Below are positions 1,794 through 19,283 of a stretch of 34,742 nucleotides of DNA, piece after piece. Below the pieces are notes generated by a model. That model saw only the letters and a list, made by a program, of their open reading frames with translations, was not told the origin of the DNA and did no database searches. Location of the stretch: the IMG/VR virus record IMGVR_UViG_3300032050_005727, positions 1 to 34,742 of that record; one strand, 5' to 3'. This DNA is from a virus. The first letter of the stretch is position 1, and each line of letters opens with the position of its first letter. Position numbers and translations under genes: made by a program.

Positions 1794-2579
1794 ATGATTA
1801 AGCTACTAGACTTATTAAAAGAGGCCAAGGGCCAGAAGAAAGCTATTATTATGGCTGGTGGGGCCGGTGCTGGAAAGTCTACATTTTCTAAGCAACTTCA
1901 ATCTGATCTTAAAAAGGCTGGCTGGACTGACTTGAATGCAGACAAATACGTTGAAGACCCAGACAGTCCTATGTACAATAATCTAGGCGCCGCGGCTTCT
2001 AGAATAGACAAAGTAGATCTACCTAATACACTTGAGAAAGGACAGAACTTCTTATACGATACTACTGCTAGTAATGTACAAAGAGTTCAAGCTATCAAAG
2101 ATGCTGGCTATGATATCATGATGGTCATGGTCTACACTAACCCGATCGTCAGTTTTCTTCGTAACTTCAAGCGTGAGCGCAAAGTTCCTACTGTAGGAGT
2201 TCTTTCTAGTTGGAATAACGTATATAAGAATATCGAGACATATAAAAAGATGTTCGGTAACAACTTCCATTTGATCTCTACAGGAACTAGTCCTGAAGAA
2301 GAGAAGATGGTAGCTGAGTTCAACAAAGCTTTTAAAGCTGGTAAGTTGAAAGAGTTCTTCGAAGGACTTTTATCTTCTGGACAGTTTAAGTCTACATTCA
2401 AGAAAGACCCAACTAAGAAGAAAACACCAGAAGAGATTGCTAAGTCTAAAGCACTTGTAGATAAACAGATCGATGTATTGTCTAATCAGTTTGATCAAAT
2501 TGAAAAGCAAGTAGAGAAGACGAAAGAAGAAGACATGAGTAAAGTAGTTAACGCAGCAAAATCGTTTATCAAGAAATGA
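1794..2579 (+). CDS. P-loop kinase (zeta-toxin/AAA_33-like) with targeting-like N-terminus
   Basis: The 261-residue product is a small P-loop phosphotransferase. Walker A is GGAGAGKS at residues 22-29. It is followed by a LYDTTASN segment near residue 88 and an R-rich NFKRERKVP lid-like segment near 122-131, the layout of zeta-toxin, polynucleotide-kinase and AAA_33 proteins. The substrate cannot be read from sequence; nucleotide, RNA end or UDP-sugar are all possible. The first ten residues (MIKLLDLLKE, then A) form a short amphipathic helix ending in L-x-E|A, which matches the T4 capsid-targeting and prohead protease consensus. The last ~60 residues are lysine/glutamate-rich and probably coiled coil. 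It overlaps the next gene by ATGA, forming a unit of enzymes through 4068. Confidence 0.75.
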   Translation: MIKLLDLLKEAKGQKKAIIMAGGAGAGKSTFSKQLQSDLKKAGWTDLNADKYVEDPDSPMYNNLGAAASRIDKVDLPNTLEKGQNFLYDTTASNVQRVQAIKDAGYDIMMVMVYTNPIVSFLRNFKRERKVPTVGVLSSWNNVYKNIETYKKMFGNNFHLISTGTSPEEEKMVAEFNKAFKAGKLKEFFEGLLSSGQFKSTFKKDPTKKKTPEEIAKSKALVDKQIDVLSNQFDQIEKQVEKTKEEDMSKVVNAAKSFIKK

Positions 2580-3166
2580 TCAACCCAGTTAAAATAGGCC
2601 GTAGTATTGTTGATGACATTTTGAAAGAAGCGTCTTCAGATGTAGGCCCATGCTTTTATCCTGGTAAATTTAAACCTCCACATAAAGGTCACTTTGAAGC
2701 CGCAAAGTATCTGGCTTCTAAACCTTATATTAACAATGTCTATGTGATCATATCTAGAGTTGAGAAGTTTGGTATAACTCCAGAAGACTCATTGTATATA
2801 TGGAAAGAGTATTTGAAAGCAGAACCTAATCCTAAGATTAGTGTTTCTATTTCAACAGAGTCTACACCTATTAAAGATATTTTTGTCTTTATGGACAAGA
2901 ACCCAGAAGTAGATCCTATTTATGTAGCTGGAGCTGGTGAAGAAGTTGAAGGCTTAGGTTACTTCGATGCTTTACAGAAAAGATTTCCTGATCGTGTAAG
3001 AAAAGAAGTTGTGCCTGATCAGTTTGAAAGAATATCTGCTACACAAATGCGTGCCGCTATTAAGACAGGTAATGTAAAAGAGTTTGAGAAGTTTATTCCA
3101 GACGCAGCATATAACAAAGGAGTCACCAAAGATGTGTTCGGTAGACTTATGAAAATAATCAAATGA
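2576..3166 (+). CDS. HxGH nucleotidyltransferase (cytidylyltransferase/NMNAT-like)
   Basis: The 196-residue product belongs to the HxGH nucleotidyltransferase superfamily. It has FYPGKFKPPHKGH with HKGH at residues 36-39, and the second nucleotide-binding signature ISATQMR at 153-159 (family form ISSTxxR). Relatives transfer AMP or CMP to NMN, phosphopantetheine or glycerol phosphate. An NAD-related role is plausible because several T4-like phages carry NMN adenylyltransferases, but specificity cannot be assigned here. The first 19 residues precede the fold and end in ILKE|A, another L-x-E|A prohead-protease-like site. It is coupled by ATGA overlaps to the kinase before it and the zincin-HAD gene after it. 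Confidence 0.8.
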   Translation: MINPVKIGRSIVDDILKEASSDVGPCFYPGKFKPPHKGHFEAAKYLASKPYINNVYVIISRVEKFGITPEDSLYIWKEYLKAEPNPKISVSISTESTPIKDIFVFMDKNPEVDPIYVAGAGEEVEGLGYFDALQKRFPDRVRKEVVPDQFERISATQMRAAIKTGNVKEFEKFIPDAAYNKGVTKDVFGRLMKIIK

Positions 3167-4068
3167 CAGACGCACAGAAAATATTAACCATTGAGGACTT
3201 TGTTGAGTTTGCTGTAAGACGACTTGGTATTGAAAAAGCACCTGAATTAAAGTTCGCTAGTAACAGAGACTGGGCAGTTAAACGCCATAGTTTTGGTCAG
3301 TATGATCCTAATGGTAATACACTGACAGTTTATATCAATAATAGAAATATGGCTGACGTGCTTAGAACACTTGGCCATGAATTAGTTCATCATAGACAAA
3401 ACGAACTAGGCAAAATCCAGAATGATTCTGGTAAAACTGGCTCTGAAATAGAAAATGAAGCAAATGCTCTAGCCGGAGTATTAATGCGTGATTATGGTCG
3501 TATCAACGACACTATTTATGAGGCCATTATTCCTTCACTAAAACAAATATATGAGGCAGAAAAGTCTGGACGTATTCAAATCTATTGTGATATGGACGGT
3601 GTGTTATGCGACTTCGACAGTAGGTTTGAACACTTCTACGGTGTACCACCTAGAGAGTACGCTAACGAGAAAGGTCAAAAGGCTATGGAAGAAGCCGTCG
3701 ACAAAGTAGGAGTGGTATATTGGTCTAAAATGCCATGGTTAAAAGGTGGTCAAGAACTCTGGAATAAGATATCTAAATACAACCCAGCAATATTAACTAG
3801 TCCAGGTAAATTCATTCACGCTAGAGAAGGTAAGTTAATTTGGATCAAAGAGAATCTGAACCCACAGCCAAGAGAAATTATGTTCGCTAATACTGGAAAA
3901 AAGTTTGAAGCGATTAAAGACAAGACTCCACAAGAGATTAGAAACTCAATGTTGATAGATGACTATTATCCAAACCTTGCTCCATGGAAAGAGATTGGCG
4001 GTATTGCTATCATGTATAAATCTTATGATCAAGTAAGTGCAATATTAGATAAGTTTAGACTAAAATAA
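3163..4068 (+). CDS. zincin metallopeptidase-HAD 5'(3')-nucleotidase fusion
   Basis: The 301-residue protein has two apparent enzymes. Residues ~1-115 carry a metallopeptidase signature, HELVH at 72-76 (HExxH), followed by a glutamate-rich ENEANALAG segment near residue 98 that could supply the third zinc ligand. Residues ~138-301 are a haloacid-dehalogenase fold: DMDGVLCDF at 143-151 (nucleophile and acid aspartates), AILTSP near 212 (motif II) and MLIDDYYPN near 265 (motif III/IV), most like 5'(3')-deoxyribonucleotidases. The linker holds two IYE|A strings (cut after residues 120 and 131), matching the T4 gp21 cleavage consensus. Peptidase target and nucleotidase substrate are unknown. It is coupled by ATGA to the nucleotidyltransferase. 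Confidence 0.75.
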   Translation: MTDAQKILTIEDFVEFAVRRLGIEKAPELKFASNRDWAVKRHSFGQYDPNGNTLTVYINNRNMADVLRTLGHELVHHRQNELGKIQNDSGKTGSEIENEANALAGVLMRDYGRINDTIYEAIIPSLKQIYEAEKSGRIQIYCDMDGVLCDFDSRFEHFYGVPPREYANEKGQKAMEEAVDKVGVVYWSKMPWLKGGQELWNKISKYNPAILTSPGKFIHAREGKLIWIKENLNPQPREIMFANTGKKFEAIKDKTPQEIRNSMLIDDYYPNLAPWKEIGGIAIMYKSYDQVSAILDKFRLK

Positions 4069-4072
4069 TGTT

Positions 4073-4651
4073 ATGATCCCTAATGAGTCAACACTCAAGA
4101 AAGAGTTTTCGAAACGTGATGTACAAAGAATGCGTAACCTAATCACCGGTAAATCTGGTGACAGAACTCAGATTCAAGCAGGCTACGAAAGAAAACACCA
4201 AGACTATAAAGAAGGTGATGTTTGGGAAGAAGATGGAAAGAAGTGGACTATCAAAAATGGTGTTAAGCAGTCTATTACAAAGCTAGACAAATTCAAACAT
4301 CTTATTAGCCTTCCTCTAACTTGCCCTTGTTGTAAGAAGCCAATGAAGGCCGACGACATCAATAAGAAGATGTACTCTATTCACATGATGTGTTTTAATT
4401 GTGTAATAGAAATGGAGGCCAAGTTAAAAGCAGAAGGCAAATTTGAAGACTACGAAAAGAATATACTTAACTCTAACAAGAATGCTAGCCTAGAAGACTT
4501 TGAAAAGGCTCTAGACGCTTGGCTTGAAGAGAAAGATACCTTTGTTTCTGAACAAGGAGACATAGAAAACTGGTCTGGTGGAGATAAAACCAAGGCCTAT
4601 GAGGAGATCAAGAAGAAGATCCAAGAATGGAAGAAGGTTGATATTTATTAG
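4073..4651 (+). CDS. zinc-ribbon protein of unknown function
   Basis: The 192-residue product has one treble-clef/ribbon-like zinc site: C84-P-C86-C87 and C107-F-N-C110, giving two CxxC knuckles 19 residues apart. The N-terminal third is basic (KKEFSKRDVQRMRNLITGK), followed by a DVWEEDGKKWTIKNGVKQ segment that I associate with conserved T4-like phage proteins of unknown role. The C-terminal third is a charged helical region. The four-cysteine site suggests binding of nucleic acid or protein, but no enzyme motif is seen. It starts 4 nt after the preceding stop. Its own stop (TAG, 4649-4651) lies within the second recurrent ATATTTATT motif, so the transcription unit probably ends here. Confidence 0.7.
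   Translation: MIPNESTLKKEFSKRDVQRMRNLITGKSGDRTQIQAGYERKHQDYKEGDVWEEDGKKWTIKNGVKQSITKLDKFKHLISLPLTCPCCKKPMKADDINKKMYSIHMMCFNCVIEMEAKLKAEGKFEDYEKNILNSNKNASLEDFEKALDAWLEEKDTFVSEQGDIENWSGGDKTKAYEEIKKKIQEWKKVDIY
4641..4649 (+). promoter_or_regulatory. late-promoter-like motif copy 2 (ATATTTATT)
   Basis: GATATTTATTAGTAAA spans the stop codon of the zinc-ribbon gene and ends 18 nt before the ATG at 4668. The downstream AGTA is shared with copies 3 and 5. It begins the block of small lysine-rich genes. Confidence 0.45.
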
Positions 4652-4667
4652 TAAATCGTTAGAGTAT

Positions 4668-5297
4668 ATGCCAGCCACTTCTAAACAACAGCAAAAATTG
4701 ATGGGACTTGTTCATGCCCTTCAAAAAGGAACTGTTAAACCTTCACAAGCATCTCCTAAAGCAAGAGAGATGGCCAAGACTATGAAGCCATCTGATGTAA
4801 AAGACTTCGCTGCCACTAAACATAAAGGTCTTCCTAAGAAAGTAAAGAAAGAAGAAGGACTACAGATTCCTGAAATGTATGTGGTTCGTAAGCCTAAAGT
4901 AGGTATGAAAGAAGCTGATCTTGTAATGAAGATCAATCCACTAGAAGGAATTCAGCCTCTTAATATTGGTATGGACGATGTTCATACTGTAGCTGTAGAT
5001 GCAACTCAAGCTCAAGAGATTGCGGCTGAAACATATAGAAAATGTATGGACGAAGCTTTCCAGCTTGAAGAGAAGAAAGGAAAGGTTGGTGACAAGCTTA
5101 AAAAAGCTATCGACCACCTAGAGAAGAAAAGAAAAGAGCATCTTGATATGGCAAAAGAAGATCCTAAGAGTGCCGCTAAGCATAAAGAGCATATCGCTAA
5201 ACTTGCCCAGCAAATCGATGATCTTATGACCAAGATGGAGAAGATCGAGAAGAGCAAAAAAGAGATTAAGAAGGACGAAGACAAAAAAGATAAGTAA
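4668..5297 (+). CDS. DUF3008-like N-terminus with charged coiled-coil tail
   Basis: The 209-residue product starts at the ATG at 4668; an in-frame extension to 4578 only reads the previous gene in another frame. Residues 1-~60 (MPATSKQQQKLMGLVHALQK, then SDVKDFAATKHKGLPKKVKK) closely resemble DUF3008, a short basic domain found in phages and bacteria with no known function. The middle includes a conserved-looking GMKEADLVMKINPLEGIQP stretch. The last ~80 residues are almost all K/E/D/A helix, probably coiled coil. The gene ends in a lysine-coding A-rich tract, and its TAA overlaps the next ATG as TAATG. Function unknown; DNA binding or a packaged internal protein is plausible. Confidence 0.75.
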   Translation: MPATSKQQQKLMGLVHALQKGTVKPSQASPKAREMAKTMKPSDVKDFAATKHKGLPKKVKKEEGLQIPEMYVVRKPKVGMKEADLVMKINPLEGIQPLNIGMDDVHTVAVDATQAQEIAAETYRKCMDEAFQLEEKKGKVGDKLKKAIDHLEKKRKEHLDMAKEDPKSAAKHKEHIAKLAQQIDDLMTKMEKIEKSKKEIKKDEDKKDK

Positions 5298-5299
5298 TG
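5283..5299 (+). repeat. 17-bp direct repeat, left copy
   Basis: AAAAAAGATAAGTAATG encodes the end of the DUF3008-like protein (stop TAA) and the ATG of the next gene. An identical 17-mer occurs exactly 420 bp downstream at 5703-5719, bracketing the gene between them. Confidence 0.9.
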
Positions 5300-5704
5300 A
5301 AACAGCAATTAAGCGAAATAAAAAGAATGCAAAAATTGGCTGGTATCATTAACGAAGATTTGACTAGTGATATCAAATCTGATTTAGAGAAAGTATCAGG
5401 TTTAGGACCTATTCTTGATCCTGTTAAAGTAAAAGAAGTAGCTAAAGAATTAGTAAAAACTTCTAAGAAAATAAACCCTGACGTTTTTCAAAAAGACATA
5501 AACGCCTTTAATAAAATAGCTGTTTATTTAGCTAATAATAAACTAAGTAAAGCCGCTACTACTATTGCTAGTTTAGGTGAGAGTTTTCGTTTAACAATAT
5601 GGGGCATTATGGATGAGGTATATCCAGAACTTTGGAATACACTATTTCAAGAAAAATATCATTCAGATGCAAAACCAACACCAAAAGATAATTTACCTGA
5701 ATAA
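5297..5704 (+). CDS. unknown 135-residue protein, possible inserted gene
   Basis: I do not recognise a fold. The N-terminus, MKQQLSEIKRMQKLAGIINE then D, is an amphipathic helix ending in I-N-E|D and resembles the helix-plus-L/I-x-E starts of its neighbours. The rest looks all-helical with no cysteine pairs, catalytic signature or membrane segment; the segment TIWGIMDEVYPELWNTLFQEKY near residues 100-122 is aromatic-rich. The gene is bracketed by an exact 17-bp direct repeat (5283-5299 and 5703-5719) that includes both its own start codon and the start codon of the next gene. Excising one 420-bp unit would cleanly rejoin the flanking genes, so it may be a recent acquisition. Confidence 0.7.
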   Translation: MKQQLSEIKRMQKLAGIINEDLTSDIKSDLEKVSGLGPILDPVKVKEVAKELVKTSKKINPDVFQKDINAFNKIAVYLANNKLSKAATTIASLGESFRLTIWGIMDEVYPELWNTLFQEKYHSDAKPTPKDNLPE

Positions 5705-5719
5705 AAAAGATAAGTAATG
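5703..5719 (+). repeat. 17-bp direct repeat, right copy
   Basis: This copy is identical to 5283-5299, including the TAATG at its end. Here the TAA is no longer the functional stop: the upstream gene ends at 5702-5704 and the ATG at 5717 opens the Dps-like gene. Confidence 0.9.
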
Positions 5720-6088
5720 GAAGCAGTAGGACTATTCTTAGGTACATTAATGCAGAGCCGTAATCAAGCTCACATTTACCACCTTCAAGTACAAGGTATG
5801 GGTTCTTTCGCAGCCCATAAAGCGCTTCAAGAATATTATGATGGCATAATTGATCTAATTGATGGAATCGCTGAATCTATTCAAGGTCGCTATGGTATCA
5901 TAACTAACTATAAAATGGCTGATACTATTCGTGAAGATAATAACGCTAGACTATATTTTGATGGTCTATCTAAATTTGTAGAGACTATCAGAAAGCAGCT
6001 TCCTCAAGATTCTTATATACAAAACGAAGTTGATACTGTAGTTAAGCTCATTGAGACAACTAAGTACAAGCTTAAATTCTTACAATAA
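5717..6088 (+). CDS. mini-Dps / ferritin-like protein
   Basis: The 123-residue product looks like a compact four-helix ferritin-like protein. Residues H22, H34, D49 and E53 have spacings of 12, 15 and 4, which equal those of the Dps intersubunit ferroxidase site (E. coli Dps H51, H63, D78, E82). The surrounding AHIYHLQ and HKALQEYYDGIIDLIDGIAE strings are typical of the family's first two helices. It is shorter than cellular Dps (about 167) and lacks an obvious lysine-rich DNA-binding tail. Iron oxidation with peroxide and DNA protection is the expected activity if it assembles. It resembles a family often annotated only as a T4-like phage protein of unknown function. Its TAA overlaps the next ATG. 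Confidence 0.75.
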   Translation: MEAVGLFLGTLMQSRNQAHIYHLQVQGMGSFAAHKALQEYYDGIIDLIDGIAESIQGRYGIITNYKMADTIREDNNARLYFDGLSKFVETIRKQLPQDSYIQNEVDTVVKLIETTKYKLKFLQ

Positions 6089-6828
6089 TGGATAAGGCCT
6101 TACTTAAGCAAATAAAGAAAGGCATCGAAGTCGAAATGGAACACACTGATGATCCTAAAATGGCTTTGAAGATAGCCATGGATCATATCAAAGAAGATCC
6201 TAAATACTACGACAAACTAACTAAAGCAGGTCTAGAAGAGTGTTGCTCAAGAGGTATACAACTTCATGAAACTGCAAACAGACTTCTAATCTCAGAAGGT
6301 CTTAATTACCATTTACAAAATAAGATTGATCTTAACGAATCGATCTACCGTCCTCAATCAACAAACTTTCTAGCTTTGTTTGAAGAGGCTCGTGCTTTGT
6401 ATGATGCTGGTAAACTACAACTATCTGAGCAAGACGAAGTATATTTCAGTGAAACTGATCTAGGACTAACTGGGATCTATAACGGTGTGAAAGTGCCACT
6501 TGACTTTCCAATGACTATTGACTTCTTGTTAGAAGTAAAAAAGAAAGCAAAGAAGAAACAGCCTGAATTAAATAAGCCTAAGCGTGGTGGTTCAAAAAAG
6601 TTCTACGTTTATGTACGTAAACCTGGTGGTGGCATCAAGAAAGTATCTTTTGGTGATACATCTGGCTTATCTGCTAAGATCAATAACCCAGAAGCTAGGA
6701 GAAGTTTTGCCGCTAGACACAAATGCTCACAAGCTAAAGACAAGACAACTCCAAAATACTGGTCTTGCCGTCTACCAAGATATGCTAAGCTCTTAGGACT
6801 TAAGAGTAATTTTTCTGGCTTTTGGTAG
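6088..6828 (+). CDS. DUF5661-like N-terminus plus basic C/H-containing domain
   Basis: The 246-residue product has two recognisable ends. Residues 1-~45 (KKGIEVEMEHTDDPKMALKI, then DHIKEDPKYYDKL) match the DUF5661-type motif seen in many phages. Residues ~165-240 are basic (GGSKKFYVYVRKPGGGIKKV, then ARHKCSQAKDKTTPKYWSCR) with H-x-C...C residues that could bind metal. I recall this C-terminal region in marine T4-like phage proteins of unknown function. The middle is rich in L/I-x-E strings (ISEG, LNES, LFEE, LSEQ), possible prohead-protease sites that would free the two ends. No catalytic motif is seen. Confidence 0.7.
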   Translation: MDKALLKQIKKGIEVEMEHTDDPKMALKIAMDHIKEDPKYYDKLTKAGLEECCSRGIQLHETANRLLISEGLNYHLQNKIDLNESIYRPQSTNFLALFEEARALYDAGKLQLSEQDEVYFSETDLGLTGIYNGVKVPLDFPMTIDFLLEVKKKAKKKQPELNKPKRGGSKKFYVYVRKPGGGIKKVSFGDTSGLSAKINNPEARRSFAARHKCSQAKDKTTPKYWSCRLPRYAKLLGLKSNFSGFW

Positions 6829-6840
6829 AAATAACTTTAA

Positions 6841-7479
6841 ATGCTTAACTACAATATAGAGTCTTTCAAGTGCTTGGTAAGACAGTCTTATTTTACTAAA
6901 GACGTAAAACACCATTCTATATTCCACAAGTGTTATGCGTTTGGTATACAGTCTGTTGACTCCAAGATATTGACGTTTCATGTTATGACTGATTATGGCA
7001 TGTTAAGGTCTCGTGTTCCTATCTCTGAAATCTATATCAAAGAGCCAAAAGAAGATGTACCATATTACTACAAACAGCTCTGGGATTGTTTTGGATCAGA
7101 TGCTAGTGTAATTAAGTTCGACTTCTTGAAAGACAAAAGGTGTAGAGTACTATTAAGAGACAAGTCTTATGTTTGGGCTACATATATGTTCACAGTAGAC
7201 TGGCAGAATAACCCTTATTCAAATGAGCCATCAGACTACAAATGTGGTCATATTCTAGTAGCAGACGAAGGCTACTTACTTTGTCAGCCTAACAATAGGA
7301 TATTCTGGAAGGATTCTAACTGGATAACAAAAGACTTCCCAGTTGACCCTAAAATGATCAAGGTAGACACTGAACTACTCAATGTAGAATCAATATCTGA
7401 CAGATGGGTAAGTGAAGATTCTGACTGTTTTTATTATGATATCAATGAGGCCATACCAGGAAATAAAAAAAGAAAGTAA
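6841..7479 (+). CDS. conserved hypothetical protein, 212 residues
   Basis: I do not recognise a functional family, although the opening (NYNIESFKCLVRQSYF) resembles T4-like phage proteins of unknown function. The protein is rich in aromatic residues and mixed beta-strand patterns, has scattered unpaired cysteines (residues 11, 31, 76, 98 and others), and shows no signal peptide, membrane segment or nucleotide-binding motif. It starts 12 nt after the previous stop and ends in a lysine-rich tail (GNKKRK). Its 3' end overlaps the start region of the next reading frame, so translation of the two is probably coupled. Confidence 0.65.
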   Translation: MLNYNIESFKCLVRQSYFTKDVKHHSIFHKCYAFGIQSVDSKILTFHVMTDYGMLRSRVPISEIYIKEPKEDVPYYYKQLWDCFGSDASVIKFDFLKDKRCRVLLRDKSYVWATYMFTVDWQNNPYSNEPSDYKCGHILVADEGYLLCQPNNRIFWKDSNWITKDFPVDPKMIKVDTELLNVESISDRWVSEDSDCFYYDINEAIPGNKKRK

Positions 7480-7705
7480 TATTGTTGTAAGACACTTTGA
7501 CGAAAACATTGACCCTGTTGAGTTAATGTGGCATCGTGATCAAGAAGATCGTATTATTGAACCAGTTGAACCAACGGACTGGAAGTTTCAGCTAGACAAT
7601 CAGCTACCTACTTTAATCGACAAGCCGATATTTATTCCTAGGTATACGTGGCACCGTGCCATTAAAGGTACAGGCCCACTAAAAGTAAAAATAACGAAGC
7701 TGTGA
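7445..7705 (+). CDS. small beta-rich protein, cupin-like (tentative)
   Basis: The conserved part begins around 7481 (IVVRHFDENI) and continues WHRDQEDRIIEPVEPTDWKF, DNQLPTLIDKPIFIPRYTWH, RAIKGTGPLKVKI. The HRDxEDRxVE, IPxYTxHR and G-x-L-x-V-x-I pattern looks like a small double-stranded beta-helix (cupin) with histidines on two strands. The frame is open from an ATG at 7412, but that lies well inside the preceding gene; the ATG at 7445 gives 86 residues and is my choice, and a non-ATG start near 7481 is possible. It is coupled to the following gene by a GTGA overlap. The function is unknown and the fold is inferred. Confidence 0.6.
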   Translation: MRPYQEIKKESNIVVRHFDENIDPVELMWHRDQEDRIIEPVEPTDWKFQLDNQLPTLIDKPIFIPRYTWHRAIKGTGPLKVKITKL

Positions 7706-8292
7706 TCAAACTTACTAACATACTAACCGAAATGCTTCAAGAAGCTTGTTGGGACGGATATGAACAACAAGGCATGAAGAAGAAAGGTGACAAGATGGTT
7801 CCTAACTGTGTTAGAGTAAGTGAAGCCAAGAAGAAAAAGAAAGGAAAAATCAACCCTGCTTACTTGACAAAAGATGCAGCGGCAATGAAGAAAGAGATCG
7901 ACAGAGTTAAGAAGTTAAAGTCAGATGACCCTTCTGCTTATGGCAAATGGGAAGCTGATTATGCTGATAAAGCCAAGACCAAAAAGTATAAGACTAAGAA
8001 GAGTGCCGCTACTTCTGCTTACGAAAAAAGATTCGGTAAGAAGAATGAGGCAGAAGGACCAGGATCAATCCCTGAACCAGAGACTAAATTAGTTAGCCAA
8101 GATCCTCAGACTGGTAAAGTTAGTTGGGATGTTAGCTACGAGGTCAAGCCAAGAGAATTATATAAAAGAGTTGATGACCTAGTTAAGTTTTTAGAAAGAG
8201 CTAAAGGAAACCCTGAGTTAGATGGTATTAGACTTTCTCTAAGAAACCTTAGAGCTAAGATCAGTAGACTAATGACTCAAGGTAAATTGTAA
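7702..8292 (+). CDS. lysine-rich phage protein with CWDGY motif
   Basis: The 196-residue product starts at GTG in a GTGA overlap. The N-terminus (MIKLTNILTEMLQE, then A) is another short helix ending in L-Q-E|A, followed by CWDGYEQQGMKKKGDKMVPN and C, a motif I associate with marine T4-like phages. The middle is very basic (KKKKKGKINPAYLTKDAA and a K-rich KTKKYKTKKSAATSAYEKRF). The C-terminal ~65 residues are a cleaner domain (VSWDVSYEVKPRELYKRVDD and following helices). It has no enzyme motif. Charge and neighbourhood fit a DNA-associated internal or prohead protein, which is an inference. Confidence 0.7.
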   Translation: MIKLTNILTEMLQEACWDGYEQQGMKKKGDKMVPNCVRVSEAKKKKKGKINPAYLTKDAAAMKKEIDRVKKLKSDDPSAYGKWEADYADKAKTKKYKTKKSAATSAYEKRFGKKNEAEGPGSIPEPETKLVSQDPQTGKVSWDVSYEVKPRELYKRVDDLVKFLERAKGNPELDGIRLSLRNLRAKISRLMTQGKL

Positions 8293-8295
8293 ACT

Positions 8296-8574
8296 ATGAA
8301 GTTACACGAACTATTACATCAGTTGTTTGAAGAGAGGTTGAAGTTTCACCACTCTAATGCACCGGATGCAAAAGGTAAGTTTAGAAAGTTATCAGCAGAA
8401 AAGCTAGCTAACTGGTTGATTAGAACAAGAAAGAGCAACATGAGTAAAATCACAGGCTCTTTAAACCAACAAGCTAACTTTAATCGTAGAGAAGATCCTG
8501 CTTACGCAAGAAAGATGGACAGAACTCGTGAGATTGTTAAACGTAAACTTGACAAAAAGAAGAAGAAAAAATGA
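8296..8574 (+). CDS. small basic protein with SLNQQ motif
   Basis: The 92-residue product begins MKLHELLHQLFEE, a helix with an L-F-E|E site, then continues with a basic conserved part (LSAEKLANWLIRTRKSNMSK, ITGSLNQQANFNRREDPAYA) and ends in a lysine tail (KLDKKKKKK). I recall the S-L-N-Q-Q, N-R, D-P-x-Y-A pattern in marine phage proteins of unknown function. The poly-lysine codons provide an A-rich tract immediately before the ATG of the next gene (ATGA overlap), which may act in its initiation given the lack of a Shine-Dalgarno sequence. DNA binding is plausible. Confidence 0.65.
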   Translation: MKLHELLHQLFEERLKFHHSNAPDAKGKFRKLSAEKLANWLIRTRKSNMSKITGSLNQQANFNRREDPAYARKMDRTREIVKRKLDKKKKKK

Positions 8575-8861
8575 TCAACAATATAGATATATTAAAGCAG
8601 ATACTACTTCGTGAATACGATGCTGAAGTAGAAAAGGCACTTGCAAACAAGGCTAAAGCTACTAAGATATCTAAGTCAATACTTAAAAGTGTATATGCAA
8701 AAGGTCTAGCTGCTTGGAAAACTGGTCACCGCCCTGGTGTTGGTCAACATCAATGGGCAATGGGCCGAGTTAATTCATTTGTAACTGGTAAAGGTGGTGC
8801 TAGAAAAGTTGACGCTAAGTTGTGGAAAAGAGCAAGTAAATCAAAGAAAAAGAAAAAATAA
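8571..8861 (+). CDS. DUF5824-like basic protein
   Basis: The 96-residue product has an N-terminal helix (MINNIDILKQILLRE, then Y; L-R-E site), then VYAKGLAAWKTGHRPGVGQH and QWAMGRVNSFVTG, close to the pattern (RGxxAxxxSHRPGxxxxxWAMARVNSF) of the DUF5824 family found in T4-like and other marine phages. It ends in RASKSKKKKK. No activity is known for the family. The conserved W, H-R-P-G and R-V-N-S-F residues suggest a compact nucleic-acid or protein binding module. It is coupled by ATGA to the gene before it. Confidence 0.7.
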   Translation: MINNIDILKQILLREYDAEVEKALANKAKATKISKSILKSVYAKGLAAWKTGHRPGVGQHQWAMGRVNSFVTGKGGARKVDAKLWKRASKSKKKKK

Positions 8862-8862
8862 T

Positions 8863-9603
8863 ATGAACAACCTATCATTTTTCAAGGCGCTTCTCATGAA
8901 AGAAATTGATGAAGAGCTTAAAGGTGGACAAAAGAAGTTAGATGTAGCTGAGCCTAAAGGTAAAATTACTGCTGCTGACTTCAAAGCTCTTCGTGCTAAG
9001 AAAGGTATGAAGAAAGAAGCAGCTCCAATTAAACAAGATATTTACGGTGAAGATCCTAACCTAGATGTTTATGCTGATAAAGATATTCCAGGACAAGGAA
9101 TGACAGAAGGTGGTGATCATGAAGTATCAATGGCACACAATAGCCTTGAGTCTATTATCAAAAGTGCAATGGAACTTAAGATGAAGCTAGGTAATGATGA
9201 GCGTAATATCCCAGGCTGGATTCAAGATCATATTACAAATGCTGAGAACTATATTGATCAAGCTGCTCAAGGTTTTCATGAACTATCTCATGATGATCAA
9301 GAAGGCGAGCATGATGTTAATGAACTTCCAAATGGTACAGAAGAAGAGCCTGTAGATGATATGACTCTACAAGGTATGATGGAAGATTTGTTTGAAGCAA
9401 AGAAGAAGCCTTCTGCTGGTTTATCAAAGAAGCAAAAGTCAACTATTGCCAAGAAAGCAAAAGCTGGTAAAGATATCGGTAAGAAAGGCAAAGGCTTTGA
9501 AATGATCGCTAAAAAAGCCGCTAAAAAATACGGTTCAAAAGAAAGAGGACAAGCTGTAGCTGCCGCCGCAATGTGGAAAAGCGCTGCTAAAAAAGCAAAA
9601 TAA
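8863..9603 (+). CDS. acidic-middle, lysine-rich-tail protein (possible internal/prohead protein)
   Basis: The 246-residue product starts at the ATG at 8863; the in-frame extension to 8794 lies inside the previous gene. The N-terminal helix is MNNLSFFKALLMKEIDEE. The middle (residues ~60-180) is acidic, with a conserved-looking GGDHEVSMAHNSLESIIKSA and WIQDHITNAENYIDQAAQGF helical region. The C-terminus is strongly basic (AGLSKKQKSTIAKKAKAG, then KKYGSKERGQAVAAAAMWKS), a tail I recall on several marine phage proteins. The bipolar charge and N-terminal signal-like helix fit a core protein packed with DNA, but no function is established. Confidence 0.65.
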   Translation: MNNLSFFKALLMKEIDEELKGGQKKLDVAEPKGKITAADFKALRAKKGMKKEAAPIKQDIYGEDPNLDVYADKDIPGQGMTEGGDHEVSMAHNSLESIIKSAMELKMKLGNDERNIPGWIQDHITNAENYIDQAAQGFHELSHDDQEGEHDVNELPNGTEEEPVDDMTLQGMMEDLFEAKKKPSAGLSKKQKSTIAKKAKAGKDIGKKGKGFEMIAKKAAKKYGSKERGQAVAAAAMWKSAAKKAK

Positions 9604-9605
9604 GA

Positions 9606-11135
9606 ATGCCTGTGTCACAGCACGATATATTAAAGACTATACTCTTACAAGAGTTAGATAGGATGGAGCCTGAAACATCTACGTTTGAGGATGATCCTAT
9701 GCAGTTTATATTGAGAAAGTATGCTGGTCTTAAGAAGACTCTCGAGTACTTAATGACTCCTTCATTTGAAGAGTATATTACTGGCATTTATGTAGTGGCC
9801 CCTAAGCCTACAACATTCAAGATCGTACTTCATAATGGCCAGATATTCTTTTTACAATTCATGGGCAAAGCTTATGAAGCCACTGTAGAAGGAAAGAGAT
9901 ACTATTTGATGGCAATTGGTGAGAAAGAAAGATGCATGGTTGCTATCTCTAGACTATTAAGATTTGGTAGCCCATTGAAAACTAAAGGACCTGAAGGTGC
10001 AGAACAAGCTCCGGCAGGTGGACCAGATGAAGAAGCAGGGCCAACACCTCCGTCAGAAAAACCAGCCGCAGGCGAAGAAGGTGGAGAAGAGGAATTGACA
10101 GAAGCGACTATATTAGAAGCTATACTAAAAGAAGCCGATACAGACAAAGCCACTTTATTTGAATCAGCACTTGTATATGCTTGGTACAAATTAAACAATC
10201 TACCGGTTCCAAAAGATGCAATACTACCAGAAGAGTTAACTAAACTAAAGTCTAACAAGAACATGGTAGAAAAAGCAGGCCAAGCTATCATTGATTTAGA
10301 TCTAGTTGGAGGAAATTCTGCTAAAGCTATTGGTCGTACTGGTGACAGTATAGATACTACTGAATTTTGGAAAAGTCAAGGAGCTACTAATAAGACTTCT
10401 AAGACTGATGTTGTTTTAGGAGACAAGAAGATATCTGTAAAAGTAGGTAACTCTCAACTAATGTCTGGAGGTAAAAATGAATCTCTAGCTACTTTTTATG
10501 CTGCCGCAAAAAAGGTACCAAACATATTGAATACAAAAGAGGCTAAAGCTGTATTAGATACATTTGACAAGTTTGTTGAAGTAGGATATACCAAGTCTGG
10601 AGGAGTTGAAGCTGGTTTAAAGTCTGGTAAAGACAAAGTGTTGTCTGCTGGAGATAAAGCACATAAAGAAATGGCTGGCAAACTAGAGGAACTATTTAAC
10701 AAAAGCCCAGAATTTAAAATAGCGTTTGCTCAAGAAGCAATGTCAGGATATGAAAAGTTTGGCCCAAATAGTATAGGATCCGCTGACTATGTTCTTTCTA
10801 CTAACCCTGACTTTTCTAATGCTAAACTGCACTCTACTAAAGACAAAGGGTACGCAGCTAAAATAGCTGATCAAATGAAACTAACTGTTAGATTCAAATC
10901 TTCTTCTGAAAAGCTAAAAGGAGAAAAAACAGGTAGATATAGATTCTGGAGTGTTGTTTCACTGATATCAGACCCGACAAAACTTAAAGAAGGTGTAATG
11001 GATACTATAAAGTCATATATCTCTAAAGTAAGAGACTTTATTGATAACGGGGTTTATTCTTTGACTAAGTTTGTAATGGGTGACACTTTACAAGATGATG
11101 ATATCAAGATAGATAACAACATCGATTTTAGCTAA
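9606..11135 (+). CDS. two-domain protein with nuclease-like C-terminal domain
   Basis: The 509-residue product begins MPVSQHDILKTILLQE then L, an N-terminal helix with L-Q-E. Residues ~25-125 form a mixed domain (FILRKYAGLKKTLEYLMTPS, IFFLQFMGKAYEATVEGKRY). A Pro/Glu/Gly-rich linker occupies ~128-162. The second half contains KTDVVLGDKKISVKVGNSQL then MSGGKNESLATFYAA, with D268 and S277-V-K279 arranged like the D...(E/S)xK core of restriction-endonuclease-like folds. A catalytic role is uncertain because the expected acidic residue before K is Ser. Its neighbourhood among packaged-type proteins raises the possibility of a virion-borne or packaging-related DNA-acting protein. Confidence 0.6.
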   Translation: MPVSQHDILKTILLQELDRMEPETSTFEDDPMQFILRKYAGLKKTLEYLMTPSFEEYITGIYVVAPKPTTFKIVLHNGQIFFLQFMGKAYEATVEGKRYYLMAIGEKERCMVAISRLLRFGSPLKTKGPEGAEQAPAGGPDEEAGPTPPSEKPAAGEEGGEEELTEATILEAILKEADTDKATLFESALVYAWYKLNNLPVPKDAILPEELTKLKSNKNMVEKAGQAIIDLDLVGGNSAKAIGRTGDSIDTTEFWKSQGATNKTSKTDVVLGDKKISVKVGNSQLMSGGKNESLATFYAAAKKVPNILNTKEAKAVLDTFDKFVEVGYTKSGGVEAGLKSGKDKVLSAGDKAHKEMAGKLEELFNKSPEFKIAFAQEAMSGYEKFGPNSIGSADYVLSTNPDFSNAKLHSTKDKGYAAKIADQMKLTVRFKSSSEKLKGEKTGRYRFWSVVSLISDPTKLKEGVMDTIKSYISKVRDFIDNGVYSLTKFVMGDTLQDDDIKIDNNIDFS

Positions 11136-11189
11136 AATAAATTTTTTTCTTTCAACTTTTTTTTGTATATTTAGCCATAAACGCAAATT
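11136..11189 (+). promoter_or_regulatory. T-rich intergenic region with TAnnTTTG-like promoter
   Basis: This AT-rich gap contains two T-runs and TATATTTAG at 11166-11174, similar to the -7 TAnnTTTG box of Bacteroidota with one extra base. Its architecture resembles the start of the window (22-53). It probably drives the small gene at 11190. No clear -33 element is visible. Confidence 0.35.
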
Positions 11190-11441
11190 ATGGCAAGAAA
11201 AGACCATTTATACCGTACTATAAGGACTATTGAAGGGATTGTATTTCACCTCTACGAAGACGACAAAGGGGTGATTAGACCTCACTCTACAAAAGGACCT
11301 GCAGTAGAATACCCTAAGTCTGAAGGAAAATCAGACGAATACTTCATTTTTGGCATCAAATATGATTATGACAAGTGGCTAGAACTGTCTAGACCATTCC
11401 GTAAGGCCCTGACCGTAAATAAGGACGATTTAGTTGAATGA
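11190..11441 (+). CDS. small hypothetical protein, 83 residues
   Basis: A short soluble protein (ARKDHLYRTIRTIEGIVFHL, then GKSDEYFIFGIKYDYDKWLE). I recall the YFI-G-KY-YDKWLELSRP pattern in T4-like phages but know no function. It has no cysteine, signal peptide or membrane segment; the pattern suggests a small beta-sheet followed by helix. It is preceded by its own promoter-like gap and followed by the third recurrent ATATTTAT motif, so it may be a single-gene unit expressed at a different time from its neighbours. Confidence 0.65.
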   Translation: MARKDHLYRTIRTIEGIVFHLYEDDKGVIRPHSTKGPAVEYPKSEGKSDEYFIFGIKYDYDKWLELSRPFRKALTVNKDDLVE

Positions 11442-11444
11442 TAA

Positions 11445-11453
11445 ATATTTATA
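11445..11453 (+). promoter_or_regulatory. late-promoter-like motif copy 3 (ATATTTATA)
   Basis: The motif lies in a 12-bp palindrome, ATAAATATTTAT, four bases after the upstream stop and 15 nt before the ATG at 11469. It contains TATTTATA, the exact reverse complement of the T4 late box TATAAATA, and is followed by AGTAAA as in copy 2. It starts the packaging block. Confidence 0.45.
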
Positions 11454-11468
11454 AGTAAATGAGCAGAG

Positions 11469-11825
11469 ATGTCATTTAACTTAGAAAAATATTTAACCGA
11501 AAACAATCTCACTATCATTTCCAAGATCAGAGAAGACGTTGGAGATGACGAGACTGGACCATCCAAGGCGGACCTTAAGAAGACCGACAAGGATTTTAGA
11601 GACCTTTACAAGAAGAAGGCTCAATACGCTGAACTTCAAAAGAAAGTAAAAGCGATACTATCAAAACACGCTGTAAAAGCACCAGACGGTTCTTTGAAAC
11701 TTAAAGACGTGGCTGCCTACAAGAAAGAAGTAGGTAATATGCCAGATCAACTTAAGCTATTGAAGCAGCAGATTCAACAACTTGAAACACCTGAAACTGA
11801 CACAGATGAAGAACCAATGGACTAA
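11469..11825 (+). CDS. small charged helical protein upstream of terminase
   Basis: The 118-residue product has an N-terminal MSFNLEKYLTE (L-T-E|N) and a second site KIRE|D at residue 22. The remainder is highly charged and helical (KADLKKTDKDFRDLYKKKAQ, then KLLKQQIQQLETPETDTDEE) with an acidic end. I do not recognise it. Size, helical content and position two genes before the large terminase make a small terminase subunit conceivable, but no helix-turn-helix is evident and the resemblance to the other targeting-type N-termini points instead to a virion protein. It overlaps the next gene by 20 nt. Confidence 0.6.
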   Translation: MSFNLEKYLTENNLTIISKIREDVGDDETGPSKADLKKTDKDFRDLYKKKAQYAELQKKVKAILSKHAVKAPDGSLKLKDVAAYKKEVGNMPDQLKLLKQQIQQLETPETDTDEEPMD

Positions 11826-12504
11826 GATAGGCTTTATAGCTATTGCTATTATAGCTTTGTGGTGGATATTCATTCAAAAAGGCTGTAGCCCAGAGTTTGA
11901 TACTAAACCATACGAACACAAGATCGACTCTCTAGAAAATAGAATCGATTCTATCAAACAAGAGAACGATAGTCTAGAAGCTGGTATACAATATCTTGAA
12001 GAGACTAACACATACTTAACTGATCGTGTTGATGGTCTAAAAGATAAAGTAGCTATTCTAAAAGATGATCTTAAAGACGCTGAGAAAGCATTAGTGTATA
12101 CGCCTACACAAGTAGACAGCTTCTTTATGTTTCAATATCCAGTACAGTTTGCTAGCTTAAGTGAAGATACAACACATCTTCCTTTAGAAGTATCTAAGCA
12201 GATTGTTGTTGATGTTAAACAACTTGGTATTAGTAAAGAAGTAATCAAGTTTCAAGACAGCACTATCTTAGGGCTTGATACTCTAGTTAAGAACAAAGAC
12301 AAGATTATCATCGATCTTAGAAAGAAAGAAGAAAATTATATCGCTATTGATAAAGACCGTGTTGAGCAAGGCAAAAACTATCAAATACAAATTGATGGTT
12401 TGAAGAAAGAAGTTAGTAAGAAGAATTGGAAACTCAAGATGGGTAAGTTTGAAAAGGTTATAATCGGAGTTGCAGGCTTAGCCGCTGGCATACTCATAAA
12501 ATAA
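11806..12504 (+). CDS. two-ended membrane protein with coiled coil (spanin-like topology)
   Basis: The 232-residue product starts at the ATG at 11806 (MKNQWTKIG); an extension to 11782 is possible but only overlaps the previous gene more. Residues 8-23 are one hydrophobic helix followed by QKGC with C27. Residues ~36-100 are a heptad-rich coiled coil (DSLENRIDSIKQENDSLEAG), with a further charged helix to ~215, and the last ~14 residues (VIIGVAGLAAGIL) are hydrophobic. A membrane anchor at each end with a coiled coil between is the topology of a unimolecular spanin, which fuses inner and outer membranes at lysis. However, QKGC is not a canonical lipobox, so the N-terminus may simply be an inner-membrane anchor. 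Confidence 0.6.
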   Translation: MKNQWTKIGFIAIAIIALWWIFIQKGCSPEFDTKPYEHKIDSLENRIDSIKQENDSLEAGIQYLEETNTYLTDRVDGLKDKVAILKDDLKDAEKALVYTPTQVDSFFMFQYPVQFASLSEDTTHLPLEVSKQIVVDVKQLGISKEVIKFQDSTILGLDTLVKNKDKIIIDLRKKEENYIAIDKDRVEQGKNYQIQIDGLKKEVSKKNWKLKMGKFEKVIIGVAGLAAGILIK

Positions 12505-16910: not shown

Positions 16911-17912
16911 GTGAATAAGAAGTTCAATACTCAGTTTGCTACACAGAAACTACGTCAAGAGACTAGTGCTACTAATTTTGGAGGGGCTACATTTACTCCT
17001 GGTACAGGTGAACAAATGGCTACTAACAAAGCCTTCAAGAAAAAAGAGAAGAAGGAAGTTAAAGATGTTGAGCCTAAATACGCAGCTGGTAAAGCTAAGA
17101 TCTATATGAAAGATAAGTGGGGTTGGAAAATGGCGCCGTCTATACCTAACCGTCCATCAAAAGGTGGTTTTATTTACAAGCAATTGTTTGAAGAGTTATC
17201 AGAGTTTGTCAAAGAGAATGAGCCAGTTGAAGAAGTATTCTCTAAAGCTGACTACGAGAAGGCTAAAGTAATTCTGTCTAAGCTAAAAGACACTAACAGT
17301 AAATTATACAACGCTATTATAGCATTTGCTTCTGATGTTTATCCTCATGATCTTGATCAAGAACTAGGAGCAGACATTCAAGCAGCAGGACTAAATGAAG
17401 GATACGAGCACATAAGATACTTGGTAGCGGATCTAAAGAATCTTTATCATAGTTCTAATGACGAGACTTTTAAAAAGGCGGTAGTTGATGTTATACCTGA
17501 TAGTGATAAGTACACGTATGTAATGGATATGCCAGAGAAGTATATCCAGAAGCTTCAGAATTTAGAGAAAATGATTCCACAAGCTAGACTAAGTGATCCT
17601 AAAAGGGCTAGTGAGATTATCAATAATGCTATCGAGTTCTTTATGGACAAACAAGCATTGAACGAAGGATACGCTCAGTTTAGAAACGAAACTAAGACTA
17701 GAAATAAGCCTGATCAATTCCATCAAGCAGTTCGTGCTGTAAAGAAGAAGGTACAAGAGATCAATCGTCTATTTGAATATGTTAGCCGTCTAAAAGAAGA
17801 GTTGTCTGAAGGACAAGACGGTTTAAAATATAAAATGCATACAGAAAAAGCCCTTGCCAAAATCAAGGACATGGTTAATGAACTCAACAAAAACATTAAA
17901 AAGTTTAAGTAA
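16911..17912 (+). CDS. prohead-cluster protein sharing GGATFTPGTGEQ with the major capsid protein
   Basis: The 333-residue product starts at GTG 2 nt after the previous stop. Residues 24-35 read GGATFTPGTGEQ, identical to residues 73-84 of the major capsid protein encoded at 21227. A lysine-rich stretch follows (KAFKKKEKKEVKDVEPKYAA), then KDKWGWKMAPSIPNRPSKGG and FIYKQLFEELSEF, which holds L-F-E|E and L-S-E|F sites. The C-terminal two thirds are helical (QFHQAVRAVKKKVQEINRLF near 266-285). Function is unknown. The shared motif and location argue for a virion or prohead component that contacts the same partner as the capsid N-region. Confidence 0.7.
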   Translation: MNKKFNTQFATQKLRQETSATNFGGATFTPGTGEQMATNKAFKKKEKKEVKDVEPKYAAGKAKIYMKDKWGWKMAPSIPNRPSKGGFIYKQLFEELSEFVKENEPVEEVFSKADYEKAKVILSKLKDTNSKLYNAIIAFASDVYPHDLDQELGADIQAAGLNEGYEHIRYLVADLKNLYHSSNDETFKKAVVDVIPDSDKYTYVMDMPEKYIQKLQNLEKMIPQARLSDPKRASEIINNAIEFFMDKQALNEGYAQFRNETKTRNKPDQFHQAVRAVKKKVQEINRLFEYVSRLKEELSEGQDGLKYKMHTEKALAKIKDMVNELNKNIKKFK

Positions 17913-18056: not shown

Positions 18057-19283
18057 ATGACAACTGCAAAATTATATCGTAAGTTTAAGGCTGGAGAAAT
18101 CAGCCGTGATCGTTTTTTATACGAAGTACGCCGTGACTCCAACTTGCCTTGGATCACTAATACTACATCATTTGATGATGCCGTTAAGATCTTGAAGAAT
18201 AAGAGCATTATCAGTGAGATGGATCAGAATGTAAAGACTGACCCAGCAGTTGATCGTGTAAACCCATACTTCTTGAAGAAGGGTGTTGAGAAACTCCTTG
18301 CCAAAGAAAAAGAGTTGACTAATGACTCATACAAGCTTGCCCTAAACAAGGCTGCTAAAATGCTTGTAAAGAATCCTCATGCATTTGATCAAGATATGCT
18401 TCACAATGCTGATGAGGTTGAAAAGAAAGATGCTAAACTTCAGACTAAAGAAGTTAAGAAAGGTGACCTTAACGATACTGCCAACGAAATGAAGAAGGTT
18501 AAGGTACAAGATAAAACTAAGAAAGCTAAAAAAGCTAAGACTCTAAAGGAAGCAGCTCTAGATGAGTTGACTTCTTCTCTTAAAAAAAAAGAGTCGATTA
18601 ACGAAGACACACACTGGAAGCACACTGTAGGAGCTGAGATTCATACTCCTGATGGTCCTGGTAAAATCAAAGAGATTGTAGGCTCAACATTTACTGTTGA
18701 AATGCATGACGGTACATTGAAAGATTATCAGATCAATGTAATTGAAAAGGCTATCGAGAAGCACAAAGAGAATCCTAAAGAAGCTTCTGCTATGTTCATG
18801 GATGCTCCATTGAACCCTAGCTATAGAATGAATAAAGATGGTCAAAGAGCCATTAACCCAGATGGTGTTGAGTTTAAAGTAGGTGATACTGCAATCGCTA
18901 AAGACAATAATCAAGTTATCAAGATCGGTGCTTTTAAGCAAGAGCAAGGTAGAATCAAAGCTATCTATACTGATGGGCTTGTTACCAATGTAATTGATAT
19001 CGATGGTCTTAAAAAGCAGATGGATAATGTAAGACCTAGTTTACAACCTGATCTTGGATCAGCTTTCAACAAGTTAAAAGGCATGATGGAGAAAAAGAAA
19101 GATGATAAAGCTTTCTTGACCAAAATGAAAGATAAGTTAAAGAAGTTGAAAGAGTCTTTATTTATGAAAGGAACAGGTCCACAAGCTAGTGCTGTAGTTG
19201 CTTCAAGTGATTCATCTAAAAGAGCAGTTAAAGCCGCCGGGTTCAGAGAAGTTCCTAACACTCAAGATGTAAAAGCCGCCTAA
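18057..19283 (+). CDS. prohead-cluster protein with KOW/SH3-like segments
   Basis: The 408-residue product is unrecognised as a whole. Residues 1-~95 are helical (AKLYRKFKAGEISRDRFLYE). Residues ~100-185 are lysine-rich and low complexity, including TLKE|A and SINE|D sites. Two beta-type segments follow that look like SH3/KOW barrels: VGAEIHTPDGPGKIKEIVGS near 190, and EFKVGDTAIAKDNNQVIKIG near 270. The end is Ala/Ser-rich. It sits immediately before the prohead protease and overlaps it by TAATG, the place of T4 gene 68, so a prohead core role is plausible. No enzyme motif is seen. Confidence 0.65.
   Translation: MTTAKLYRKFKAGEISRDRFLYEVRRDSNLPWITNTTSFDDAVKILKNKSIISEMDQNVKTDPAVDRVNPYFLKKGVEKLLAKEKELTNDSYKLALNKAAKMLVKNPHAFDQDMLHNADEVEKKDAKLQTKEVKKGDLNDTANEMKKVKVQDKTKKAKKAKTLKEAALDELTSSLKKKESINEDTHWKHTVGAEIHTPDGPGKIKEIVGSTFTVEMHDGTLKDYQINVIEKAIEKHKENPKEASAMFMDAPLNPSYRMNKDGQRAINPDGVEFKVGDTAIAKDNNQVIKIGAFKQEQGRIKAIYTDGLVTNVIDIDGLKKQMDNVRPSLQPDLGSAFNKLKGMMEKKKDDKAFLTKMKDKLKKLKESLFMKGTGPQASAVVASSDSSKRAVKAAGFREVPNTQDVKAA

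Follow-up and report, generated by a model that had tools for sequence, protein, structure and literature searches.

Why should a run of genes in one viral genome fragment begin with a short amphipathic helix that ends in L-x-E or I-x-E? The fragment (IMG/VR record IMGVR_UViG_3300032050_005727; its whole stretch of 34,742 nucleotides, about 34.7 kb, is called the window here) comes from a far-T4 myovirus whose nearest cultured relative is Flavobacterium phage immuto, and the genes in question lie between positions 1794 and 11825. A sequence-only reading of the window had proposed that their products are loaded into the prohead through these N-terminal tags, trimmed by a gp21-type protease and injected with the genome. 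From the analysis described here, it is very probable that these N-termini act as T4-type capsid-targeting sequences, which would dock the proteins in the prohead, be cut by gp21 and let the cargo pass into the next host. The parts of this interpretation differ in strength. Loading of the tagged proteins into the prohead is well supported by inference, from the T4 register, the Glu specificity, the swapping of tags, the kinship with the N-termini of gp21, gp22 and gp23, and the virions of the cyanophage S-CREM2. Trimming at the Glu is plausible and consistent with the sequences, short of proof, and injection with the genome is plausible by analogy with T4 only.

The genes concerned are the following (an arrow marks the putative cleavage site).

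1794-1823, plus strand: tag MIKLLDLLKE↓A; gene 1794-2579, Zeta-toxin-like P-loop kinase (PF06414, E 2.6e-13)
2576-2629, plus strand: tag MINPVKIGRSIVDDILKE↓A; gene 2576-3166, cytidylyltransferase/NMNAT-type nucleotidyltransferase (phrog_395/3041, cytidyltransferase)
3163-4068, plus strand: fused cargo; M78-like metallopeptidase domain, junction SLKQIYE↓AEKS (Glu ends at 3555), 5'-deoxyribonucleotidase domain
5297-5356, plus strand: tag MKQQLSEIKRMQKLAGIINE↓D (class B); gene 5297-5704, body without assigned family
7702-7743, plus strand: tag MIKLTNILTE↓MLQE↓A (two sites); gene 7702-8292, basic body of pI 9.8
8296-8331, plus strand: tag MKLHELLHQLFE↓E; gene 8296-8574, very basic body of pI 11.1
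8571-8615, plus strand: tag MINNIDILKQILLRE↓Y; gene 8571-8861, DUF5824 body of pI 10.7 (PF19141, E 3.9e-16)
8863-8904, plus strand: weak tag-like N-terminus MNNLSFFKALLMKE↓I; gene 8863-9603, M-K-E at the site, not [LI]xE
9606-11135, plus strand: two-part cargo with tag MPVSQHDILKTILLQE↓L; constant N-half, linker, C-terminal domain
11469-11534, plus strand: tag MSFNLEKYLTENNLTIISKIRE↓D (class C, two sites); gene 11469-11825

All nine genes listed in the sequence-only reading were found where it had placed them, and eight carry [LI]xE at residues 10-22, whereas 8863 fits poorly and its N-terminus is conserved only in close relatives. In T4, mutants of the ten-residue tag of IPIII assigned targeting to residues 4 and 7 and processing to residues 8 and 10, and gp21 cleavage requires L/I-x-E before the cut and little else (PMC9026906). 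T4 ipII and ipIII begin with MKTYQEFIAE, the spacing of which equals that of MIKLLDLLKE, and L4, L7, L8 and E10 of the 1794 tag match the IPIII positions. This register is exact in 1794 and 7702, and the same spacing occurs at an offset in 2576, 5297 and 11469. Kinase bodies in relatives have the tags MIKLFDILQE, MKLLDILKE, MISLVQLLKE and MIKLYDLLTE. The end of the 2576 tag directly precedes the GxFxPPHKGH motif, and I-x-x-x-ILxE is retained in relatives; the GTG start of 7702 overlaps the stop of the preceding gene (GTGA), and the tag type of 11469 is common to four immuto genes (F-D/N-L-x-x-FLxENxLTxNSxLLxE). Within the same run, a small ferritin-like/DUF5856 protein at 5717-6088 (PF19174, E 1.5e-17; PHROG starvation-inducible regulator) has no tag.

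To count the motif, we defined a loose form as [LI]xE with the Glu at residues 8-25 (regular expression), and a strict register taken from T4 as hydrophobic-x-x-hydrophobic-[LI]-x-E. The loose motif was present in 11 of the 17 genes of 1794-11825 (a few by chance), compared with 18.5% of interior segments (binomial 3.6e-5) and with 5.5 genes expected from shuffled N-termini (P 0.0026). The strict register was present in 5/17, compared with 1.4% of interior segments, and its Asp control in 0/17. The N-terminal concentration claimed earlier is thus well above the interior background and the shuffles, a comparison that the sequence-only reading had itself put forward. In the complete genome of immuto, 19 of the 23 genes in the matching region have the loose motif, here as [LIV]xE (6.3 expected; the maximum in 300 shuffles was 15), as do 7/9 head genes, and the remaining 196 genes are at background (52, with 45-52 expected). 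Related phages gave the same picture: the motif is common to the lineage as a whole and also occurs outside 1794-11825. Among 367 non-redundant genes upstream of terminase from 80 relatives, [LI]xE at residues 8-25 is found in 50%, compared with 17-28% deeper in the protein, while [LI]xD is under-represented there and Ex[LI] shows no trend. The strict register is found at 99 of these N-termini (27%), about ten times enriched over interior segments (2.7%), with a mean of 12.3 and a maximum of 24 in 1000 shuffles, and its Asp version is at 2.5%, compared with 2.6% in interior segments. From the shuffle, Asp and reversed-motif controls, the signal is therefore N-terminal, directional and Glu-specific. 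In four records, a genome of about 175 kb has 14-19 strict-register genes, compared with 4-9 for the Asp control, and from this excess we therefore estimate, by gene counts only, about ten tagged proteins per genome and virion.

The tags are also exchanged between proteins. Three recurrent classes, MIKLxDILxE, (R)MQxLAGIIxE and FNLxxYLxENxLT, were found on 19, 13 and 7 unrelated body families, respectively, in the first sample of relatives, and RMQxLAGIIxE (class B) gave at least 91 pattern matches in part of IMG/VR. When MIKLxDIL was scanned without a requirement for Glu, position 10 was Glu in 105 of the 120 usable cases among the matches listed, and in the Glu-requiring scan the Met of the tag lay at the open end of the frame (at most 15 codons upstream) in 89/103, again among the matches listed. 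Both tag patterns gave at least 120 stretches in part of IMG/VR, and the K/D-exchanged pattern gave 42 in all of IMG/VR. The tag pattern itself had 20 hits when 257 Gb of bacterial genomes were scanned, of which the convincing ones are on phage contigs binned as bacterial that share genes with the tagged phages. Across the loci examined, the bodies of 613 tagged proteins group into 245 families (a sample selected by tag, which gives no frequency), and an alignment of 119 representatives, also chosen by tag, has the consensus MIKLxxILxE with nothing conserved beyond it. Pfam matches of the bodies include Fe/Mn superoxide dismutase, NUDIX, ART-PolyVal, PD-(D/E)XK, Zeta toxin, RimK ATP-grasp and tRNA nucleotidyltransferase, and PADLOC matches among the tagged proteins are scattered. 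Nucleotidase, kinase, nucleotidyltransferase and DUF5824 bodies stand behind differing tags in differing phages. For example, the DUF5824 body of 8571 follows MISLLKLLLE↓ in one relative (L157) and an internal SINE↓G in three others (L018, L206 and L263), the 7702 body occurs behind other tags, and the nucleotidase that is fused in 3163 is encoded separately in relatives, behind a tag of its own (MIKLLDILKE↓AEEQQYKIYCDMDGVL and others; in immuto, ESDFMPKYQIYCDMDGVL directly follows the tag Glu). The MIKLxDILxE tag is swapped between many unrelated proteins, such as kinase, nucleotidase, Nudix, superoxide dismutase, ADP-ribosyltransferase and nuclease, and is nearly absent from bacterial genomes. 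Two tagged proteins of relatives deserve separate mention. A superoxide dismutase (L062, 5510-6196; PF02777, E 1.6e-30) has the tag MITLLEILKE↓A, and a 2H phosphoesterase (L350, 96-635, minus strand) begins with MIKLIDILKE↓Q and may be a packaged anti-CBASS enzyme. Its Acb1 and 2_5_RNA_ligase2 matches are sub-threshold, and an identification as Acb1 was set aside on account of the Pfam cut-off.

The protease that would act on such tags is encoded in the window, together with the T4-type head genes.

19283-19915, plus strand: gp21-type prohead protease (PF03420, E 4.8e-24), with its own N-terminal site SLTE↓AK
20058-21197, plus strand: gp22-type scaffold, with the tag-like start DLLKE↓AIADAK in many relatives
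21227-22906, plus strand: gp23-type major capsid protein, with the tag-like start NLVQSLLTE↓S and prohead site QLVVE↓STTT

The gp21 homologue that the sequence-only reading had placed at 19283 is confirmed by its PF03420 match. Between the major capsid protein and its counterparts, identity is 55% for immuto, 49% for Microcystis phage Mel-JY01 and 34.5% for Rhodothermus phage RM378, and the window and immuto have a common gene order of primase, exonuclease, nucleotidyltransferase/nucleotidase region, ferredoxin-like gene, terminase, portal, gp21, gp22 and gp23. In 51/55 relatives, [LIVM]xE directly precedes the gp21 protease domain, and in the sequence alignment the gp23 prohead site is [LIV]xE followed by A, S, Q or T in 24/24. 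Judged by sequence only, the protease of this lineage appears to use [LI]xE sites in head proteins, and the tags look like the N-terminal starts of the lineage's own prohead proteins gp21, gp22 and gp23. The stretch LRQE↓TSATNFGGATFTPGTGEQ of a further gene, 16911-17912 (GTG start), recurs where the mature capsid protein begins, as LVVE↓STTTNGNLNTGGATFTPGTGEQ (21400-21450), and relatives of this gene retain a similar E-MSTTGTGASFxPGxGEQYAxPKAF segment.

Evidence from virions can be obtained from cyanophages. The published virion proteome of the T4-like cyanophage S-CREM2 comprises 52 proteins, detected by mass spectrometry in CsCl-purified virions (PMC10665884). Among them, a SAM hydrolase (MKDFDSFLEE), an APH-like kinase (MKRFDAFLTE), a cytidylyltransferase (MKNFSSFLTE) and two proteins of unassigned function, gp13 (MKDLHSFLTE) and gp136 (MQTFSMFFSE), have a tag of the form MxxFxxF(L/F)xE, one bearer with Leu for the first Phe. 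In the approximately 145 kb examined of the 175 kb genome, all 5/5 bearers are in the virion list (chance 6.5e-4 for five of five among the 52 virion proteins of 219 in total), and none was found outside it. Proteins of the NMNAT or cytidylyltransferase type, to which 2576 belongs (phrog_395), have also been reported in virions of S-SCSM1, S-CBWM1 and S-SZBM1; the direct similarity of 2576 to the S-CREM2 enzyme is short (35 residues, E 2e-4). Among cyanophage cytidylyltransferases, the tag was seen only in S-CREM2 and MC09, HTVC008M has no Glu, and in three more the start is not covered. No mention of an N-terminal signal or tag was found in the S-CREM2 paper (PMC10665884). The virion-packaged Cas9-like nuclease of S-CREM2 (gp12; L489, 7704-10313) has a tag-like RFASFMAE↓A at residues 18-25.

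Sites of the same kind were also found within fused cargo, where the sequence-only reading had not noted them: LKQIYE↓AEKS in 3163 and LTE↓ATILEAILKE↓A in the linker of 9606, where the Glu codons end at 10103 and 10133 (junction peptides LKQIYEAEKS and LTEATILEAILKEAD). For 55 internal cargo-domain starts, which come from related loci and are not fully independent, [LIV]xE lies within -25 to +8 in 51, compared with 16.9 expected from random positions in the same proteins. These junction sites may be remnants of N-terminal tags that were retained after gene fusion. The N-half of 9606 is constant and is free-standing in about 38 relatives, and in 21 long members the C-parts are of at least five unrelated types; the C-domain of the window protein is free-standing behind the tag MNRKNDMSLVKLLKE↓ in one relative (L318). 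The predicted structure of the N-half (pLDDT 80) gave no match in the PDB, and the best match of the C-domain (pLDDT 65) was the MspI restriction enzyme, which was not significant (E 0.33). Because this match is not significant, the C-domain is called PD-(D/E)XK-like tentatively, from its KTDV...SVK motif only.

Several observations weigh against the capsid-targeting interpretation. First, the fit to T4 is uneven, as 8296, 8571 and 9606 fit a looser spacing only and 8863 fails the T4 register. Second, the S-CREM2 tag expression was chosen after its sequences had been viewed, and with the preset strict register the difference is smaller, at 4/25 non-tail virion proteins compared with 5/126 non-virion proteins (p 0.04). 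Third, a literature search for virion proteomics of immuto or of the lineage of the window found none. Fourth, co-occurrence with gp21 (22/36 tagged compared with 6/23 control records, with gp21 in every control record above 100 kb) is too weak to be taken as proof, because large marine phage records mostly carry gp21 anyway. When 14 tagged fragments without gp21 were examined for terminase and capsid genes, terminase was found in only 2, and most could not be placed. Finally, the residue after the tag Glu is loosely constrained (I, A, G, V, S, E, T and others), compared with A/S in gp23 and G/S/A/N in gp21, and this P1' residue was rejected as a discriminator of cleavage since it is too free in tags.

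The free P1' residue speaks for the possibility of targeting without trimming, in which proteins attach to the scaffold core through the helix, only a few are cut by gp21 and the conserved Glu serves binding. A T4 tag with Asp at position 10 keeps targeting and loses processing (PMC9026906), and detection in S-CREM2 virions says nothing on cleavage. In the lineage, however, Glu and not Asp is conserved, the sites recur at domain junctions, where binding alone needs none, and the gp21 motif itself is L/I-x-E with few other determinants, so we regard this explanation as unlikely. A signal for another virion compartment, the tail tube or baseplate, would resemble the N-terminal signals of contractile injection systems. 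Tails are able to carry effectors too, and the tagged genes are situated among late genes, but the register is that of T4 capsid targeting, the Glu site is that of the head protease and the start is as in gp22 and gp23, which makes a tail address highly improbable. It is more doubtful still that the tag gathers enzymes on a phage-made structure in the infected cell and that these enzymes are never packaged: many tagged bodies are metabolic or nucleic-acid enzymes, but the tagged enzymes of S-CREM2 are present in CsCl-purified virions. Chance, in the form of Glu-rich proteins with ordinary amphipathic N-terminal helices, can practically be dismissed. An 18-residue segment from anywhere has the loose [LI]xE with a frequency of about 20-25%, but the shuffle, Asp, Lys and reversed-motif controls, the confinement of the motif to one region of the immuto genome, the near-identical tags on unrelated bodies and the rarity of the K/D-swapped pattern all contradict it.

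Under the capsid-targeting interpretation, the amphipathic helix (hydrophobic at about 4, 7 and 8 with Glu at 10, or with this spacing shifted inward) would dock the cargo onto the gp22 scaffold core during prohead assembly. gp21 would then cut after [LI]xE, as at the homologous sites of gp21, gp22 and gp23, and free the cargo inside the head, from which it would enter the next host together with the DNA. Where genes are fused and sites lie between the domains, one core-bound precursor could yield several enzymes. The docking partner, the cleavage of each protein, the injection and the action in the host are inferred here. Because the residue after the Glu is free in tags, trimming may be incomplete or absent in some tagged proteins. 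We also propose, at about even probability, a wider idea, namely that a swappable ten-residue address defines the injected effector repertoire of uncultured T4-type phages, each virion holding about ten proteins or more, recruited from hundreds of families (kinases, nucleotidases, Nudix, superoxide dismutase, ADP-ribosyltransferases, 2H/Acb1-like phosphodiesterases and nucleases), some of them polyproteins with constant docking halves and exchangeable payloads that would be cut at [LI]xE junctions by the head protease within the capsid.

Two other genes of the window can be recorded here. At 11806-12504, a membrane-anchored coiled-coil protein directly precedes terminase and has a weak Rz-like spanin match (E 8.8e-4), and from 26866 to 34742 a highly repetitive open frame of 2625 amino acids (TGSFTGS/ASSADN repeats) runs past the window end and probably encodes a tail-fibre-like protein.

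Currently, the proteins carried into the cell at time zero are known for only a few model phages. Using a short sequence rule, based on T4 mutational data and the match to a cyanophage virion proteome, candidate injected proteins can be read straight from genomes, including enzymes with a potential to weaken the host's early defence (Nudix, Acb1-like and ADP-ribosyltransferase proteins). In this way, a large pool of phage genes without assigned function becomes a ranked list of candidates for testing, and new tags become available with which proteins could be directed into phage heads.

Compared with known systems, the closest likeness is to T4 IPI-III and Alt, which also have a 10-20 residue N-terminal helix with hydrophobic residues at 4, 7 and 8 and Glu at 10, a gp21-type protease and several small basic cargo proteins. 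T4 has MKTYQEFIAE, whereas this lineage has several tag families per phage (MIKL, MQxLAGI, FNLxxYLxENxLT and KKSQLRxIIKE), and its cargo, unlike that of T4, is largely enzymatic, comes from hundreds of body families across relatives and includes fused cargo with sites at domain junctions. The cyanophages S-CREM2 and S-SCSM1 differ in host and phage family but resemble it in having cytidylyltransferase/NMNAT, kinase and other proteins in purified virions, those of S-CREM2 starting with MKxFxxFLTE. In the giant phages phiKZ, 201phi2-1 and SPN3US, many head and inner proteins have propeptides that are cut after Glu, with 9-19 substrates per phage (PMC10052503, PMC9026906). Their motif is S/A-x-E or A-x-E with mostly long propeptides (up to about 127 residues), whereas here the tags are 10-22 residues with [LI]xE, the sites are [LIV]xE and the head genes are T4-type, which does not place the lineage with phiKZ. 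Polyvalent proteins (Iyer et al. 2017, PMC5512222) are multidomain effectors, packaged or transferred, that combine peptidase, ART, Nudix, 2H and nuclease domains and are encoded close to late genes. In 3163, an M78-like peptidase domain with a weak match (E 4e-4, below the Pfam cut-off) is fused to a nucleotidase; most tagged proteins of the lineage are single-domain with a short tag, and the fused junctions carry gp21-type sites rather than depending on a peptidase of the protein itself. Multi-protein cargo has precedents in the T-even phages, with at least 10 internal proteins, and in the 9-19 cleaved head proteins of giant phages. The cargo set, which the sequence-only reading had called unusually large and partly enzymatic, is indeed large and enzyme-rich, but this is typical of the lineage and does not set this phage apart. 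That T4-like phages can load varied proteins by means of tags has been put forward before in general terms (PMC9026906). What appears to be new in the literature that could be searched is the scale, together with the number of tag families, the sites at junctions, the exchange of payloads and the S-CREM2 virion match. The tagged set belongs to the T4 capsid-targeting system, as a large variant of it that is rich in enzymes, and is not a new kind of system.

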